Of a stretch of 64,000 bases of DNA, positions 28,595 to 36,340 are shown piece by piece. Every line of letters begins with the position of its first letter. The first letter of the stretch is position 1. Source of the stretch: Mariniphaga sp. (lineage in GTDB: Bacteria > Bacteroidota > Bacteroidia > Bacteroidales > Prolixibacteraceae); assembly GCA_019429205.1 (NCBI GenBank), contig JAHYIT010000001.1, positions 1-64,000 of the forward strand, in the 5' to 3' direction. The translations under genes and the position numbers were made by a program. The notes beneath the pieces were generated by a model that made no database searches, was not told where the DNA came from, and saw only the letters and a list, made by a program, of their open reading frames with translations.

Positions 28595-29008
28595 ATGAAT
28601 AAAGATTCAGAAAATAGTAAAGTTCCTGATTTTTCGCTTAAAAAAGCAGAACGTTTGTGCAGCAAAAAACAAATTGAAAAATTGTTTTCTGAAGGTAATT
28701 CATTTTTGTTTTATCCGCTGAAAGTTGTTTATATTGATATTGATTTTCCCGAACCATTTCCAGCCAAATCAGCATATTCTGTAAGTAAAAAACGATTTAA
28801 AACCGCGGTGCGGCGAAATTTAATTAAACGCCGCATGCGCGAATCCTACCGTTTAAACAAGCATTTGCTTACTTTAGATGATAATTCTTCTAAAAAGGCT
28901 GTTTTTTTTATTTACATAGGTAAGGAAATACTGGATTTCCATACCATTGAAAAGGCAATGAAGCGAAGCCTGATTGCCCTGGCAAAAATTTCTACTCCGA
29001 ATCCATAA
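28595..29008 (+). CDS. rnpA: Ribonuclease P protein component
   Basis: SVSKKRFKTAVRRNLIKRRMRESYRLNK. Confidence 0.95.
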   Translation: MNKDSENSKVPDFSLKKAERLCSKKQIEKLFSEGNSFLFYPLKVVYIDIDFPEPFPAKSAYSVSKKRFKTAVRRNLIKRRMRESYRLNKHLLTLDDNSSKKAVFFIYIGKEILDFHTIEKAMKRSLIALAKISTPNP

Positions 29009-30083
29009 TTTCGGTTTGCATCCGAACCGAATCTTCGTGAATTAACTGAAACAAAATTTTCACAAAAGTTTCGTTTAAATCGAGCGTTTTACCAATGTTT
29101 ACACGGTTATCCATAAGTTGCGACCAACGGCTAATCTGTAAAGCTGTAACGTTGTTTTCCTTTTTGTACCGTCCAATTTCTTTTACAATTTCTACCCTTG
29201 AAGACAACATCTCAAGCAATTCAGAGTCGATGGCATCAATCCGGCTACGGAGCATATCCAACCGGGTTTCAAACTCAGGGTTATTGGCTGTTTGGTGCCT
29301 GATAACCAATTTATCGAGCAATTTGGCCAAATCAGCCGGGGTTACCTGCTGGGCAGCATCACTTAAAGCACACGACGGATCGATGTGCGATTCCAGCATC
29401 AGCCCTTCCATGCCCATATCAAAAGCTTTTTGGGAAATCTCGTAAAGTAATTCTCGTTTTCCGGCAATGTGGCTGGGATCGCAAATAATTGGCAGGTTGG
29501 GCATTACCCGGCGCAGTTCAATAACCGTTTTCCAGTTGGGATAATTCCGGTAAACCGTATCGCCGAATGGGGTAAAACCGCGATGAATGGCCACAATATT
29601 TTTTATACCGGCCTGGTAAATGCGCTCAATGGCACCCACCCAAAGCTGAACATCGGGGTTGACCGGATTTTTTACCATGACAACAACATTAGTTCCTTTC
29701 ACAACATCGGCAATTTCCTGCACCACAAACGGGCTGGCAGTTGATCGTGCTCCAATCCAAACTACATCAAGGCCGGCATTCAGTGCTTCCTCAGTATGTT
29801 GTGCGTTGGCTACTTCGGTACCTACAGGCAAACCGGTTTCTTTTTTCACCATTTGCAGCCATTTTAGACCAATGGAGCCAACCCCTTCAAACGATCCCGG
29901 GCGGGTGCGGGGTTTCCAAACGCCTCCCCGGAAAACAAAAACCCGGGGATCTTTTGCCAGTAGTTTAGCAGTTTCAAGTGTTTGTTGCTCTGTTTCGAGG
30001 CTGCATGGCCCCGAAATTAGAAGTGGATTGTTAATGTGGGGAAGCCACTCCTTTATTGGATTGATTTCAATATTTGTACTCAT
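28992..30083 (-). CDS. Bifunctional DAHP synthase / chorismate mutase type II
   Basis: ISGPCSLETEQQTLETAKLLA...FRGGVWKPRTRPGSFEG; C-terminal chorismate mutase (MLRSRIDAIDSELLEMLSSRVEIVKEIGRYK). Confidence 0.94.
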   Translation of the reverse strand: MSTNIEINPIKEWLPHINNPLLISGPCSLETEQQTLETAKLLAKDPRVFVFRGGVWKPRTRPGSFEGVGSIGLKWLQMVKKETGLPVGTEVANAQHTEEALNAGLDVVWIGARSTASPFVVQEIADVVKGTNVVVMVKNPVNPDVQLWVGAIERIYQAGIKNIVAIHRGFTPFGDTVYRNYPNWKTVIELRRVMPNLPIICDPSHIAGKRELLYEISQKAFDMGMEGLMLESHIDPSCALSDAAQQVTPADLAKLLDKLVIRHQTANNPEFETRLDMLRSRIDAIDSELLEMLSSRVEIVKEIGRYKKENNVTALQISRWSQLMDNRVNIGKTLDLNETFVKILFQLIHEDSVRMQTEIMDSE

Positions 30084-30085
30084 TG

Positions 30086-30982
30086 CTATTTTGTATAAAG
30101 TTTTATAAATGTTTCTTCATTTTTAATGAAATGCGGGTGTTCGCCATCGAGGATAGTTCTGATTTTATTGGCATTTAATATAAGTTCTTCCAGCTTATCG
30201 AATTCGTTATTTTTCATACAGTCGCGAAATTGCTGCAGGTGCTGGATATAAACATTCAGAGAGTTAACCACATATTGGCTGTTTTGTTCAAAAATGGGTT
30301 TCCACATGGAACACGAGCTTTTTGCCAGCCGAACTGTTGAACGGAATCCTCCGCTGGCCAAATCAAAAATAATGTTGCGGTCTTCTTTGGCCTGAACTGC
30401 ATTGGCCAGGGCAAAGGCTGCTGCGTGTGGCAAATGCGAGACAAAAGCTGTGCTGTGGTCTTGATCGTCAGACGACATGTAGGCAATATCCATTCCAAGT
30501 ACCTGGAACATCTTCTCGATTAGAGCCAGGTGTTGCGGGCCGGAATCTTCGTGATCACAAATTATGGCAATCTTTCCTCTGAACAGATCATCAATGGCTG
30601 CAGTTGGACCTGAATTTTCAGTTCCTGACATAGGGTGGGCCGGAATAAACTGTTTTCTTTTCGGGTGATTTTTAACCAGGTCGGTAATCATTTTTTTGGT
30701 GGAGCCCATATCGGCAACTGTTGTGTTGGGGTCAATCCCGTCAAGGACTGCCGGCAACACTTCAAGTTCTTTATCTACAGGTATTGCGATAATAACCAGA
30801 TCAGCGTTTTTTATTCCTTTTTCAAATGGCTCAACCCGGTCAACCAAACCCAGTTCAAGCGCTTCGCCGGCATGAATTTCGTTTGCATCTACACCTGTAA
30901 GTTCGGTCGCAAATTTCGAACGTCGCAAATCTTTCGCCAGCGATCCTCCAATGAGTCCAAGTCCAATAATTGTTATTTTCAT
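30086..30982 (-). CDS. tyrA: Prephenate dehydrogenase
   Basis: ITIIGLGLIGGSLAKDLR, HPMSGTENSGP, FRSTVRLAKSS. Confidence 0.92.
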   Translation of the reverse strand: MKITIIGLGLIGGSLAKDLRRSKFATELTGVDANEIHAGEALELGLVDRVEPFEKGIKNADLVIIAIPVDKELEVLPAVLDGIDPNTTVADMGSTKKMITDLVKNHPKRKQFIPAHPMSGTENSGPTAAIDDLFRGKIAIICDHEDSGPQHLALIEKMFQVLGMDIAYMSSDDQDHSTAFVSHLPHAAAFALANAVQAKEDRNIIFDLASGGFRSTVRLAKSSCSMWKPIFEQNSQYVVNSLNVYIQHLQQFRDCMKNNEFDKLEELILNANKIRTILDGEHPHFIKNEETFIKLYTK

Positions 30983-30996
30983 GTTTAATTCTTTTC

Positions 30997-31028
30997 AAAA
31001 AAAAGGCCCCGGAAATTCCGGGACCTTT
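30997..31028 (-). terminator. Rho-independent terminator/attenuator in the tyrA leader
   Basis: Minus strand AAAGGTCCCGGAATTTCCGGGGCCTTTTTTTT, inverted repeat followed by T8, between leader ORF and tyrA ATG. Confidence 0.85.
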
Positions 31029-31057
31029 AGCAAAATATGTTTATCTGTAACAATACC

Positions 31058-31132
31058 CTACTGGTTGATCCCGCTTTCAGAACCAAAATAAAAATACCAG
31101 TAAAAAGATGTATTGTTAATTGCAGAATTCAT
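31058..31132 (-). CDS. Predicted aromatic amino-acid leader peptide MNSAINNTSFYWYFYFGSESGINQ
   Basis: 24-codon ORF with FYWYFYF run, between a -7 box and a terminator, upstream of tyrA-aroF/CM. Confidence 0.82.
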   Translation of the reverse strand: MNSAINNTSFYWYFYFGSESGINQ

Positions 31133-31150
31133 TTTCTTTCAATTTGTAAG

Positions 31151-31158
31151 CAAAGATA
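31151..31158 (-). promoter_or_regulatory. -7 box (TATCTTTG on the minus strand) for the leader/tyrA operon
   Basis: Plus strand CAAAGATA; matches TAnnTTTG, 18 nt before the leader ATG. Confidence 0.6.
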
Positions 31159-31168
31159 GCTATTATTT

Positions 31169-33640
31169 TTAATAACGAATTAATTTTTTTGTGAAAACCT
31201 GATTCCCGTTTTCTTTAACAACAACGAGGTATATGCCGGTATTTGTATTTTCAATTTCAATTTGAGCAGAAATATTACCTGAAGCATGAGAAAGCAGTTT
31301 GGATTTTACTTTTTGCCCGTACATGTTATACACTTCAAATTGAAGTACTTCCACCATTTTGTTTAAATGAGCGTCTATTCTGAAGGAACCTGTAAACGGA
31401 TTGGGATAAATCTGAATGTTTCCGGGTGACAAAACCGGCAAGGCTGCTGAAACAGGAGATTGAATACGCAGGTTATCGATTGCCCAGCCCCAGCCATGGG
31501 CATAAGGATCTGAAAAAAGCCGGAACCTGAAAAGAATGGTATCGCCGGCAGTAAAGTTGCCATTTTCAAGGATGTTTATTTGCCTGTTTACAAACAAATC
31601 GGGACTTCCGGCAGCAGTTGAATTATTTCCTGTTATGGAATTGTTATAACTTGTTTCCCAGGAAGAATTTTCCCTTGCATCGTAACCGTTTGTTAACGGC
31701 AACCAGGTTTCTCCTTTATCTTTGCTGCCTTCCACAATCACGTAATCCCAAAACTCGAAATCGCCGAAAACGGTTCCATTGGTACCGGGTTCAACCAGTA
31801 CAATTTCATCAAAACTCATGATGGCATTCTCACTCAGAATTACAGGGTATTTCAGGATGGTTTCAAAATTAAATTCTGTGTCATCCATGTCCGGACTGGG
31901 ATAGGGGTGAGGGCTATGCAAGGCGCCGTTTTCAAAACCATCTTCTGTAAACACGTTAAAATCTGTAAGAATAAAATCTGAATTGGCTATATCAAAACTA
32001 TTCTCGTAGCCGGAAATGGGATCATACATTTTTTCTACTATAAAAGAAAAACTACTTTTTCTAGGAATTCTTCGGGTATTTTGTGCCACGGAAGAGTCTC
32101 TTGCAACAATGGAATATTCAATGACATCGCCATCAATTAACATATCTGTTATTAGCGGAAATTCAGAAGAATAAAGTGTGCCCGAATCAAATGAAAGGCC
32201 AAATGAGGGTTGTGGCTGGCCATTGACGGAATACTCCACAAAAACGGTATCAATTCCGAGATTATCATCTGCCTGAGCAGTAATTTTCAGACTTTTTCCT
32301 GTAACAAAAAAATAAGGAATGGGGTCGTGTTCAATTTTGGGAAGGGTAATATCTGGTCCAAAATTTATCCGGTAAAATTCTTCAGGTGCCTCTGAAGGTT
32401 TTGTAAAAGTCCTGTTTTTAATATCGCCGGTACTAATATAATACTGAGCCTGGCTGGTCCCGGAGAATGGTGTCCAAACAGCTTCAAAATTGCCAGATGT
32501 ATTTATTGATAAGGGAATCGAGTCGTTTATTACCTGAAAAGTATCTGAAGATAACACTATAAATAACTGATTGGTATCTAAAGGAAAATCACTTGTAATA
32601 TTTACTTCGAAACGCAGGGGTTTTACTTCTTCCTGGTCTTTAACCGGTGAAAAATCAAACCATATGTTTTTCCATCCCACATCGGCCAAAATACCCATGG
32701 AAAGCGGGCCGGGATCGTGAACTGCCTGTCCCCTTCCGATGGAATGAGTCATCAGTGAATTGATATTGCTGGCCGGATAGGTATTCCCGTTAAGGTGATA
32801 AATACTTGAACCATCATCCCATGAAGAAGGTGCATAAAGCCGGGGTCTGGCATTGTTTCCGTCGGTTTTCGCAACAGGGCTGTTTGAATATAAATTTGAT
32901 TCAAGTGCATTTTTCAGAGGTACTGAAGGATTTGTGAAAACCGATGTATCAATAAGCCGGTCGCCGTTAAATCGTTCAACAAGGCAATCGAACGATGTTG
33001 CATCTCCATTTTCCCACCAGCCATATCCACCGAGCTGGTTGTTAGCATAAAAAAATCCGGTAAAGCCAAGTCCATGGCATATTTCGTGCAAAACAACAGA
33101 AACAAAATCATACATTAGCGTTGGTGTATTGCCGTCTGTGCCGAAGTACCAGTTAATTTCTTTATTAAAATCAGCAACCATGTCGGGGCGGAAAGAATCG
33201 GTAAGTTCTTTACCTAAAATTTTTTCTGCAAGCGCTATGGGATAATAAATTTCTTTTTGGGGAGCGCCTTCAAAATTTTTTTTAAAATCGGCAGGCGCAC
33301 AACTTCCCAAAACGTTCTGCTCTTTGGGGCGCCAGTTTGCCTGAACATGAATAGGAACAGGGGATTCAATTAACTGTTCCAGAATGCTCACTGCATATTC
33401 AAAAGCATTTTTTGCCTCTTGCGGAAAAAGACTGTAGGTAACCACAAAATCAGATTTTTTTTCGGCTGACTTCAATTGATTCATTATCTCTGCCGGAGGT
33501 GGTACAAATACCTTTTCCACCTTGTGGGAGGCATAGCACACCGGTGGCGAAATTACAATCCCTTGCTTTTGCCACAATTTTTGTCCGGTGACAGAAATTG
33601 CTCCCACCAGAAATATAATTACGAGAAGTATTTTATGCAT
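31169..33640 (-). CDS. T9SS type A sorting-domain secreted zinc metalloprotease
   Basis: Signal peptide; HEICHGLGF (HExxHxxGF); C-terminal IQIYPNPFTGSFRID...GIYLVVVKENGNQVFTKKLIRY sorting domain. Confidence 0.88.
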   Translation of the reverse strand: MHKILLVIIFLVGAISVTGQKLWQKQGIVISPPVCYASHKVEKVFVPPPAEIMNQLKSAEKKSDFVVTYSLFPQEAKNAFEYAVSILEQLIESPVPIHVQANWRPKEQNVLGSCAPADFKKNFEGAPQKEIYYPIALAEKILGKELTDSFRPDMVADFNKEINWYFGTDGNTPTLMYDFVSVVLHEICHGLGFTGFFYANNQLGGYGWWENGDATSFDCLVERFNGDRLIDTSVFTNPSVPLKNALESNLYSNSPVAKTDGNNARPRLYAPSSWDDGSSIYHLNGNTYPASNINSLMTHSIGRGQAVHDPGPLSMGILADVGWKNIWFDFSPVKDQEEVKPLRFEVNITSDFPLDTNQLFIVLSSDTFQVINDSIPLSINTSGNFEAVWTPFSGTSQAQYYISTGDIKNRTFTKPSEAPEEFYRINFGPDITLPKIEHDPIPYFFVTGKSLKITAQADDNLGIDTVFVEYSVNGQPQPSFGLSFDSGTLYSSEFPLITDMLIDGDVIEYSIVARDSSVAQNTRRIPRKSSFSFIVEKMYDPISGYENSFDIANSDFILTDFNVFTEDGFENGALHSPHPYPSPDMDDTEFNFETILKYPVILSENAIMSFDEIVLVEPGTNGTVFGDFEFWDYVIVEGSKDKGETWLPLTNGYDARENSSWETSYNNSITGNNSTAAGSPDLFVNRQINILENGNFTAGDTILFRFRLFSDPYAHGWGWAIDNLRIQSPVSAALPVLSPGNIQIYPNPFTGSFRIDAHLNKMVEVLQFEVYNMYGQKVKSKLLSHASGNISAQIEIENTNTGIYLVVVKENGNQVFTKKLIRY

Positions 33641-33889: not shown

Positions 33890-36340
33890 CTAATTTTTAA
33901 CAATTTTGCTGGTAGCAACAATGTTTTTACCGTTGCTAACGCTTACCAGATACATTCCTGAACTGATTCCGGACAAATCGATTTCTGCCTTTGCCGAATA
34001 AAAAGTTTCAATTCCTGTTTCGTGCCGGATTGTTTTTCCGTACAAATCGGACAAAATAATTTCTATCGGTTCATTTTCTGTTGATTCAGGCCATTCAACA
34101 AACAAATGATTTTTAGCCGGATTAGGATAAACCTGGAATCTGCCTTCTGCAAAAAGTTCTTCAGTGCCGGTTTTCAACTCCTGAATTTTAAGGTTGTCAA
34201 TAGCCCATCCAAAGCCGTTAACCAAATTGTCGGAAGCCAGTCTGAAACGGAAAAGTACCGTATCTCCGGCCTCAAGACCCGTGTTTTGGGTCAGGTTAAT
34301 TGTGCGATTTATAAACATACTTTCGTGAGGTGTGGCTTCTGATGTATTATTTGAAAAACTATTCTTAAAGGCAGAATACCAGGCATCATTTATCCCCGAA
34401 TCATATTGTTCTGTAATCGGCATCCAGCTTTTTCCTCCATTTTGGCTTGCTTCCACTACCACAAAATCCCAGTTTTGAGGCTCAGCTTCGCGTGTACCTG
34501 GTTCAACCAAAACAATTTCATCGAACGAAATTTTACCATCAGGTTGAATGATTACCGGGTATTTAAGTTGTGCAACCAGGTTATGTTTTTCTTGTTCAAG
34601 GGCCGAAACCGGGTAAGGATTTTTGGTATGCAGGAGGTTGCCTGAAAAACCATTTAAGTTGGAAATACTAAAATCGGAAACTGAAAAATCGTTTTCGGCC
34701 CCGTTAAAATCTGTAAAGTAACTGTTAACTGGTTCATAAGCCGCGAAAACTTCCACCCTTTGAAAACCCATTGCCGGGAATGACCGTTTGTTTCCCCTTG
34801 ATGAGTTATCAATTGCTGTTAAACGATATTCCAGTTTGTCGGTGGCTCCAACCTGTTCGGGAAACTGCAATTTGCCGGAATAGAGGTTTTTTTCTATATT
34901 TTCGAGATGAAAGGATTCTTGCAAAACACCGTTGATTTTATATTCAACTGTTACCGATTTAATTCCCAAATTATCATTGGCTTCGGCACTTAATTCAATT
35001 TCTGGTACAGTTGTGGCAACAACTTTAACCGGATTGTGAAAAAGATCTGGCACATAATAATCGGGGCCAATGCGCAGTGTAAAACTTTTTGCAGGTGCTT
35101 CTGCCGGGTTTTTGAAAACGCGGCCTTTAGCTGTTTTTGCTTCAATAAAATATTGAATTTTGCCTGAAGTAAATTCAAGAGGAAGTTTTCCTTCAAAATT
35201 ATAGGCTGTTCCTGTTTGTTCCAGGTCTGCAATTTGGGAAGACGAGAAATTATCAGTGGAATAAACAATTTTTACACTTGAAAAATCTTCGTCTGATTCA
35301 GAAATTACGCCCATTTTCACTGGAATTTCGGCCACAGCTTCTTCGCGGTCTTTAAATGGTTCAAAATTAAATTTAACCGAACTCCATCCTAATTCAGAAA
35401 GAATTTCCATCGTAATTTCACCCGGGTTATGAATGGCTTCACCTTTACGGGCAGAAGGAGTCATTAAGCTGTTTTCTTCCCCGTATGAATATCCTTTCAG
35501 GTGGTAAATACTGGAACCTTCACTCCAAACCGGCGGAGCATAAATCCAGTCAACAGTGCTCAATTGGCTCGTTGAACCCTCCTGGCAGAATTTCAGATTG
35601 TCTGATGTAAGCTGGCTGTGCAATTCGCGTGATGGACTGTGGAACAATGTATTATCTGCAATTTTTTGGTTTTGGTTATTAAAAATAAAATGGTCGTAAA
35701 TGCTGGGCAGGTTATTATTGTTGTTAAAAAATCCATTTCCATCAGTGCCTTTAAGGAATCCTGAAAAACCTAAACCATGGGTAATTTCATGGAGAACAGA
35801 ACTTACAAAATCATACTGTGTTGATGGTGTATTTCCGTCGGTACCAAAATACCAGTCGTATTTATTATTAAAATGGCAAATAATGTCCGGGTTTCCCGGA
35901 TTCAAATCTTTGTTGCTCAATTTTTCGGCTAAAGCTACCGGGTAATAGGTGTTGGGGTGCGGAGTTCCGCTGAAATTATTATAGAATACAGCCGGTCGGC
36001 CTTGTGCAAGTATATTTTCATTCATGTATTCCCAGTGTGCATTAATATGAATGGGCACTGAAGATATAATTAGTGATTCCCAGATAGAAACAGCATATTG
36101 AAATGCCTGTTTGGCTTCTTCAGGAAAATTATAATAAGTAACCTTAATTGTTGATTGAGAAGTTCTTGCCGACTTTAGCTGGTTAAACTTTTCAGGAGGG
36201 GCAATAAATGTATTTTTAACCTCATCAAGAGCAATATTTATCAGGTTTTCGCTTTGGGCAACAGTTGCCGGAAATCGTTCCTGAGCCCTCGCATTGCCAA
36301 TTATAGCAATGAGAAGAAATAATTGAAGCGTCCACTTCAT
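33890..36340 (-). CDS. T9SS type A sorting-domain secreted zinc metalloprotease (paralogue of 31169-33640)
   Basis: HEITHGLGF; same architecture; C-terminal FQVYPNPAKNHLFVEW...GMYLVSVSNGKNIVATSKIVKN. Confidence 0.88.
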   Translation of the reverse strand: MKWTLQLFLLIAIIGNARAQERFPATVAQSENLINIALDEVKNTFIAPPEKFNQLKSARTSQSTIKVTYYNFPEEAKQAFQYAVSIWESLIISSVPIHINAHWEYMNENILAQGRPAVFYNNFSGTPHPNTYYPVALAEKLSNKDLNPGNPDIICHFNNKYDWYFGTDGNTPSTQYDFVSSVLHEITHGLGFSGFLKGTDGNGFFNNNNNLPSIYDHFIFNNQNQKIADNTLFHSPSRELHSQLTSDNLKFCQEGSTSQLSTVDWIYAPPVWSEGSSIYHLKGYSYGEENSLMTPSARKGEAIHNPGEITMEILSELGWSSVKFNFEPFKDREEAVAEIPVKMGVISESDEDFSSVKIVYSTDNFSSSQIADLEQTGTAYNFEGKLPLEFTSGKIQYFIEAKTAKGRVFKNPAEAPAKSFTLRIGPDYYVPDLFHNPVKVVATTVPEIELSAEANDNLGIKSVTVEYKINGVLQESFHLENIEKNLYSGKLQFPEQVGATDKLEYRLTAIDNSSRGNKRSFPAMGFQRVEVFAAYEPVNSYFTDFNGAENDFSVSDFSISNLNGFSGNLLHTKNPYPVSALEQEKHNLVAQLKYPVIIQPDGKISFDEIVLVEPGTREAEPQNWDFVVVEASQNGGKSWMPITEQYDSGINDAWYSAFKNSFSNNTSEATPHESMFINRTINLTQNTGLEAGDTVLFRFRLASDNLVNGFGWAIDNLKIQELKTGTEELFAEGRFQVYPNPAKNHLFVEWPESTENEPIEIILSDLYGKTIRHETGIETFYSAKAEIDLSGISSGMYLVSVSNGKNIVATSKIVKN

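Follow-up and report, generated by a model that had tools for sequence, protein, structure and literature searches.

The tyrA-aroF/CM operon of Mariniphaga sp. is very probably controlled by a ribosome-mediated transcription attenuator of the trp/phe type. The window, i.e. the whole stretch of 64,000 nucleotides analysed here (contig JAHYIT010000001.1, positions 1 to 64,000), carries the operon and its leader on the minus strand (Table 1). The parts of the attenuator, their conservation, the coevolution of three alternative helices and the range of ribosome positions that favours the antiterminator were established by computation, and from these we infer the cotranscriptional kinetics, the translation of the leader ORF and the response to starvation for each amino acid. 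An initial annotation of this DNA had read the region as leader attenuation following trp/phe logic, an overall reading that is supported in silico by conservation, covariation and a ribosome-position model, and every coordinate that it gave for the -7 box, the ORF, the hairpin with its T8 tract and the tyrA ATG was confirmed when the sequence was read again.

In the proposed mechanism, RNA polymerase would start just past the -7 box and a ribosome would begin the 24-codon leader. During a shortage of charged tRNA-Phe or tRNA-Tyr (or tRNA-Trp) the ribosome would stall within FYWYFYF and cover segment 1 (TAACAATAC), so that no protector could form. CGGGATC and the strand past the stop codon, left free, would then pair with GGTCCCG and ATATTTTGC to give the antiterminator, the terminator would not form in time, and transcription would proceed into the operon. 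When aromatic amino acids are sufficient, the ribosome would reach the stop codon and cover CGGGATC. After its release the protector would form too, sequestering segment 2 and, in the window's leader, CGGGATC; segment 3, then free, would fold into the terminator and transcription would end before tyrA.

Table 1. Features of the putative attenuator and of the genes that follow it, all on the minus strand, in window positions.
Feature	Position	Strand	Basis
-7 promoter element TATCTTTG (Bacteroidota type TAnnTTTG)	31151..31158	-	direct sequence reading
Leader-peptide ORF MNSAINNTSFYWYFYFGSESGINQ, 24 codons	31058..31132	-	direct reading; counterparts in 66/66 relatives
Control codons F-Y-W-Y-F-Y-F	31085..31105	-	direct reading
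Protector segment 1 TAACAATAC, immediately 5' of the aromatic run	31110..31118	-	pairs with 31056-31048
Segment 2 GTATTGTTA, just past the stop codon	31048..31056	-	pairs with segment 1; overlaps inner antiterminator helix
Antiterminator outer helix, 5' strand CGGGATC	31067..31073	-	pairs with GGTCCCG
Antiterminator inner helix, 5' strand GTAGGGTAT, spanning the stop codon	31053..31061	-	pairs with 31038-31030
Antiterminator inner helix, 3' strand ATATTTTGC	31030..31038	-	covariation count
Segment 3 GGTCCCG, serving as 3' strand of the outer antiterminator helix and as 5' arm of the terminator	31019..31025	-	covariation counts
Intrinsic terminator, 12-bp hairpin and T8; hairpin AAAGGTCCCGGAATTTCCGGGGCCTTT (31028-31002) runs into T8 (31004-30997)	30997..31028	-	direct reading, terminator scan, covariation
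tyrA, prephenate dehydrogenase, presumed regulated gene 1, ATG at 30982	30086..30982	-	NF006307; PF02153, PF20463
aroF/CM, DAHP synthase-chorismate mutase fusion, presumed regulated gene 2	28992..30083	-	PF00793, PF01817

The product of tyrA matched NF006307 with 350.6 bits, above the cut-off of 295, and contains PF02153 and PF20463; together with the Pfam domains of the second gene this confirmed the earlier assignment of prephenate dehydrogenase followed by DAHP synthase/chorismate mutase. The two genes adjoin each other in all 30 relatives tested by tblastn, and the genes downstream of the attenuator make the amino acids that the leader codons would sense. The named TyrA proteins in the genome collection that match best belong to Draconibacterium (up to 77%) and to further Prolixibacteraceae, among them Prolixibacter bellariivorans. 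Two contigs titled as Helicobacter pylori and Campylobacteraceae MAGs (L196, L199) encode Bacteroidota-like TyrA proteins with 38-40% identity to that of the window, and these bins are possibly mislabelled or contaminated. A comparison of the leader DNA with the plasmid collection gave no match.

The leader open reading frame and its control codons

The region upstream of tyrA was read in 66 Prolixibacteraceae genomes (TyrA 61-86% identical). In 66/66 a leader ORF rich in aromatic codons lies upstream of tyrA, with an intrinsic terminator after it; the case named beforehand as counting against attenuation, a relative with the operon but without the run or the terminator, was thus looked for and did not occur. 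Alignment A1 comprises 64 of these leaders. The remaining two are L061, with the leader MNTISNTFFYFYYGSIDGIV, and L015, in which the aromatic run is interrupted (FFYRSSYYYVPY). In 57/64 leaders a TAnnTTTG element is present in the 60 nt that precede the leader ATG, mostly at 18-25 nt from it, whereas shuffled sequences lead one to expect it in 3.8%.

Aromatic runs are present in every one of the 64 aligned leaders and are mostly eight residues long. Among the 425 TTN/TAN codons of the runs the third position is never a purine, which argues for coding selection on the leader ORF, and the larger length differences within the ORF in A1 are multiples of three. From the end of the run to the antiterminator strand the distance is 11-14 nt in 61/64 leaders. 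In three leaders of genus g11 (L066, L071, L077) the stop codon directly precedes a/cGGGATCG, i.e. the ORF ends just before the antiterminator strand, so that a ribosome at the stop codon would need to mask this strand from upstream.

It had been proposed that one leader senses Phe, Tyr and Trp. Codons for Phe and Tyr are universal (64/64 runs), but Trp codons occur in 53/64 and are absent from 11/64, namely from the sampled leaders of g9, g16, g20 and g22, from most of g10 and from one of g14. Phe and Tyr are thus the invariant signal; sensing of all three amino acids is plausible at the window's leader, though no invariant of the family.

The same runs bear on a different mode of stalling, in which the nascent peptide arrests the ribosome on a free aromatic amino acid, in the manner of TnaC, rather than through slow decoding of hungry codons. 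Some residues flanking the run are indeed conserved (Asn-Asn before it, Gly-Ser after it), as such an arrest peptide might lead one to expect, but the Asn codons beside the run fall on a segment that pairs in the RNA, and within the run F, Y and W follow one another in no fixed order (FYYWFYYF, YFYFYFYY, FFYFYYYF). Moreover, in leaders of trp, his and leu genes, whether from the relatives or from the source genome, the codons are those for W, H and L/I. A TnaC-like arrest is therefore very unlikely.

Competing helices and the position of the ribosome

The RNA of 31140-30997 folds with an energy of -47.3 kcal/mol, compared with -26.6 +/- 3.6 kcal/mol for 200 dinucleotide shuffles; with z = -5.7 against such shuffles a fold of this strength is not due to chance. 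Unconstrained RNAalifold recovered only the terminator from the full alignment, added the outer antiterminator helix in a sub-region and gave no protector, probably because the register of the protector helix drifts and its loop exceeds 50 nt. For this reason the helices were named beforehand and their pairs counted, with shuffles, slid registers and a cross-genus swap test as controls; the last was added because related sequences can exceed shuffles without any structure.

In the 64 leaders the terminator has 86.4% of its cells paired and changes on both sides in 10/12 pairs, with 63 both-side cells compared with 25.7 in shuffles (0/500). Terminator hairpins are found in 64/64, with energies of -12.6 to -27.4 kcal/mol and at 23-39 nt past the stop codon, and a scan of 12 kb placed that of the window among the two strongest terminator-like sites.

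The antiterminator proposed in the initial annotation, CGGGATC:GGTCCCG, exists, is conserved and covaries: it consists of six Watson-Crick pairs and one G-U pair, 96.0% of its cells are paired, and changes on both sides occur in 4/7 pairs. The partner of CGGGATC is the terminator's own 5' arm, and antiterminator and terminator are mutually exclusive. The earlier scheme was right in this outer helix and in the terminator, but lacked both an inner antiterminator helix and a protector between segments 1 and 2. The inner helix, GTAGGGTAT:ATATTTTGC, has 73.6% of its cells paired and both-side changes in 5/9 pairs. The two antiterminator helices together show 62 both-side cells against 28.2 in shuffles (0/500), and the covariation that had been sought in both the terminator and the antiterminator stems of aligned relatives is thus present and above shuffles and slid registers in each. 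In the swap test the antiterminator duplex of a leader's own strands had an energy of -12.5 kcal/mol, as against -10.6 kcal/mol across genera, with a genus-permutation z of -5.7.

The protector, TAACAATAC:GTATTGTTA, has 81.9% of its cells paired and both-side changes in 7/9 pairs, with 43 both-side cells against 20.2 in shuffles. Its covariation score of 0.253 (0.175 in shuffles) was reached by 0/500 shuffles, all slid registers scored lower, and in the swap test own strands paired at -11.5 kcal/mol compared with -7.7 kcal/mol across genera (genus-permutation z -8.9). Segment 2 is common to the protector and the inner antiterminator helix, and segment 3 to the antiterminator and the terminator. 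These helices therefore compete, and on the evidence of the aligned sequences protector, antiterminator and terminator appear to make up a full four-segment attenuator of the trp type.

A rival reading takes the hairpin for a mere terminator of the upstream metalloprotease gene and the aromatic ORF for a chance T-rich stretch. That gene does run in the same direction as the operon and ends 141 nt before the hairpin (stop at 31169), but a promoter element lies between it and the leader, the three alternative helices covary, and leader ORF, frame, spacing and terminator are all kept ahead of tyrA in the 66 relatives, which makes it extremely unlikely that termination of the upstream gene is all that this region does. 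Directly upstream of the leader there are two adjacent, similar-looking genes for large proteins (31169-33640 and 33890-36340, minus strand); both proteins have a metalloprotease-like motif (HEICHGLGF/HEITHGLGF) and, at the C-terminus, a tail similar to type IX secretion signals.

A ribosome-position model was used to relate the attenuator reading to translation of the leader. The mRNA was masked as far as the ribosome's leading edge, which was set at 17 nt counted from the first base of the codon in the P site, and the transcript was grown only as far as the terminator loop (nascent-transcript calculation). With any of the seven aromatic codons of the window's leader in the A site, the probability of the antiterminator was at least 0.99; it was 0.76 one codon after the run and 0 beyond. 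Without a ribosome the protector had a probability of 0.98 and the antiterminator of 0.01 in this leader. Averaged over the 64 leaders, the probability of the antiterminator was 0.83-0.92 at the last eight run positions, fell to 0.62 and 0.22 at one and two codons past the run, and was 0 from the third codon on and at the stop codon. In 52/64 single leaders it exceeded 0.5 at every codon of the run. In the model, then, the positions that permit antitermination match the aromatic run, and the earlier prediction that a stalled ribosome frees CGGGATC and a ribosome at the stop codon covers it is borne out both for the window's leader and for the average of the 64 leaders. The model further predicts that a stall at a Phe, a Tyr or a Trp codon would each suffice at the window's leader, i.e. 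that it would act as an OR gate.

For the state without a ribosome the family median of the antiterminator probability is 0.53, so that termination by default, in the absence of translation, is predicted for some relatives but not for all. Four leaders of genus g5 (L014, L016, L023, L028) had near-zero scores in the position model, probably because their pairing is shifted in register against the fixed columns; they make up at least part of the leaders outside the 52/64. When the finished transcript was treated at equilibrium the terminator won at every ribosome position, and only the nascent-transcript calculation separated the states; the decision must thus be kinetic. Kinetic competition is the accepted view of trp attenuation.

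Comparison with known leaders

Leader-peptide attenuation is best known from Proteobacteria, and a comparative study by Vitreschak and colleagues from 2004 reportedly mentions candidates from Bacteroidetes/Chlorobi. Single leaders whose control codons stand for more than one product of the same pathway are known from E. coli thr (Thr/Ile) and ilvGMEDA (Ile/Val/Leu). These belong to a different pathway, and in the leader of the window three types of aromatic codon are interleaved in one uninterrupted run. Closer in its target is the leader of E. coli pheA (pheL, RF01859), which has a leader ORF with Phe codons, the same protector, antiterminator and terminator logic and a role in aromatic biosynthesis. 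In contrast to pheL, the window's leader mixes Phe, Tyr and Trp codons, precedes tyrA-aroF/CM instead of pheA and has a Bacteroidota promoter.

Rfam RF01859 (Phe_leader) gave a weak full-length match to the window, with 25.2 bits (E 0.037), below its cut-off of 55 bits; the other weak sub-threshold matches, leader families aside, look like terminator matches. A metabolite riboswitch or a T-box tRNA sensor with a secondary ORF, which a 5' leader that is structured and can form either a terminator or an antiterminator might suggest, has next to no chance of being the explanation, given that no Rfam family, T-box and riboswitch models included, reached its gathering score either in the window or at eight loci of relatives, that the best sub-threshold match, Phe_leader, is itself a leader-peptide family, and that the aromatic run is conserved as codons.

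Bacteroid-trp RNA (RF01692) has been described as a candidate cis-regulatory RNA of Bacteroidetes (PMC2864571). It had no match at its cut-off in the window and none in the source genome, and matched in 17/121 relatives, trp-gene leaders with WWW among them. The RF01692 matches in relatives from the family and the order (L031-L045) have WWW leader peptides and, where the contig shows it, trp genes downstream. The leader of the window differs from this RNA in codons, target and sequence. Database predictions from 2005 placed attenuators ahead of tyrA-containing operons, including pheA>hisHb>aroAIbeta-aroQ>tyrA of B. thetaiotaomicron (PMC1173090, Table 7). The predicted attenuator of B. thetaiotaomicron resembles that of the window in pathway and phylum, but its operon begins with pheA, and the text names no leader peptide (PMC1173090). 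Clues to leader-peptide attenuation at amino acid operons come from Flavobacterium psychrophilum (PMC9723704), and a bacterial RNA screen lists, for shikimate genes, uORFs that contain Phe and Tyr (PMC6429828, Fig. 6b); the passages of these two papers that concern such leaders describe neither a Phe/Tyr/Trp leader of tyrA-aroF nor a four-segment architecture. A search of the literature, to which subscription papers were mostly inaccessible so that absence is weak evidence, turned up no account of a leader with Phe, Tyr and Trp codons before tyrA-aroF/CM. The principle of attenuation is textbook knowledge; this version of it, a leader of tyrA-aroF/CM with mixed aromatic codons, is conserved through Prolixibacteraceae and belongs to a set that is apparently phylum-wide.

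Related leaders in Bacteroidota

A model built from A1, R1, found the tyrA leader as its sole high-scoring site in the source genome (130 bits). Three further R1 matches in that genome (L088-L090) are ordinary terminators by their appearance and have no convincing leader, L089 overlapping a non-aromatic ORF. Beyond the source genome, R1 matched in 57 of 395 genomes of the order and in 37 of 399 of the phylum. The matches inspected outside the family were mostly aromatic leaders before pheA or a class I/II aminotransferase gene, as in the pheA leader L098 (MKKTYTSRYFFFYFFFFTR), and an aromatic leader stands ahead of pheA in 22/29 loci sampled in the order. The initial annotation had presented a single leader in a Bacteroidota operon; the leader itself is confirmed, but it is less isolated than that, with related leaders preceding pheA across Bacteroidota.

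In Prolixibacteraceae pheA is separate, and 3/3 of its loci examined (L086, L216, L217) have no leader. The tyrA genes sampled from four further families of the order (L082-L085) have no leader directly before them. On the simplest reading, the leader of an ancestral pheA-aminotransferase-aroF/CM-tyrA operon would have stayed with tyrA-aroF/CM when Prolixibacteraceae separated pheA. We would give roughly even chances to the wider proposal of a phylum-wide, uncatalogued class of aromatic attenuators, ancestral to pheA-aminotransferase-aroF/CM-tyrA, kept before tyrA-aroF/CM and acting as a Phe/Tyr/Trp OR gate.

The sister leaders found with R1 include those of pheA and aminotransferase operons and of aromatic amino acid hydroxylase, his, leu and aspartokinase genes. 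Two of these are in the source genome and are his and leu leaders, respectively, rather than aromatic ones. L092 (G000:C195:49235-49383, minus) has a His-rich leader, MNYGLGHYGHHYKT, and a terminator upstream of hisG (PF01634), and is likely a His attenuator. L091 (G000:C179:44325-44464, minus) has a Leu/Ile-rich leader, MKLKNNIVLLSLIIGIILLIKKN, and a terminator, and the gene downstream is 2-isopropylmalate-synthase-like (HMGL-like, PF00682). A Tyr-only leader, MKNLNNTYYYYPILTRRIGQ, precedes an aromatic amino acid hydroxylase gene (PF00351) at L234 (G829:C4:189584-189724), possibly as a Tyr-specific attenuator on the route from Phe to Tyr. In two Bacteroidota genomes (L233, L238) the leader MIFNTSIITTIIITTG, with Thr/Ile codons like those of E. 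coli thrL, lies upstream of an aspartokinase-like gene.

Leader-peptide control has been known in Bacteroidota mostly as scattered predictions. Here three helices coevolve across 64 leaders, which is strong non-experimental evidence for attenuation, and A1 can serve directly as the alignment from which to define a new RNA family. If the proposed reading is true, the OR gate would report a shortage of any of the aromatic amino acids to the first enzyme of the pathway, and this design of aromatic amino acid control would operate in a phylum that dominates guts and sediments.
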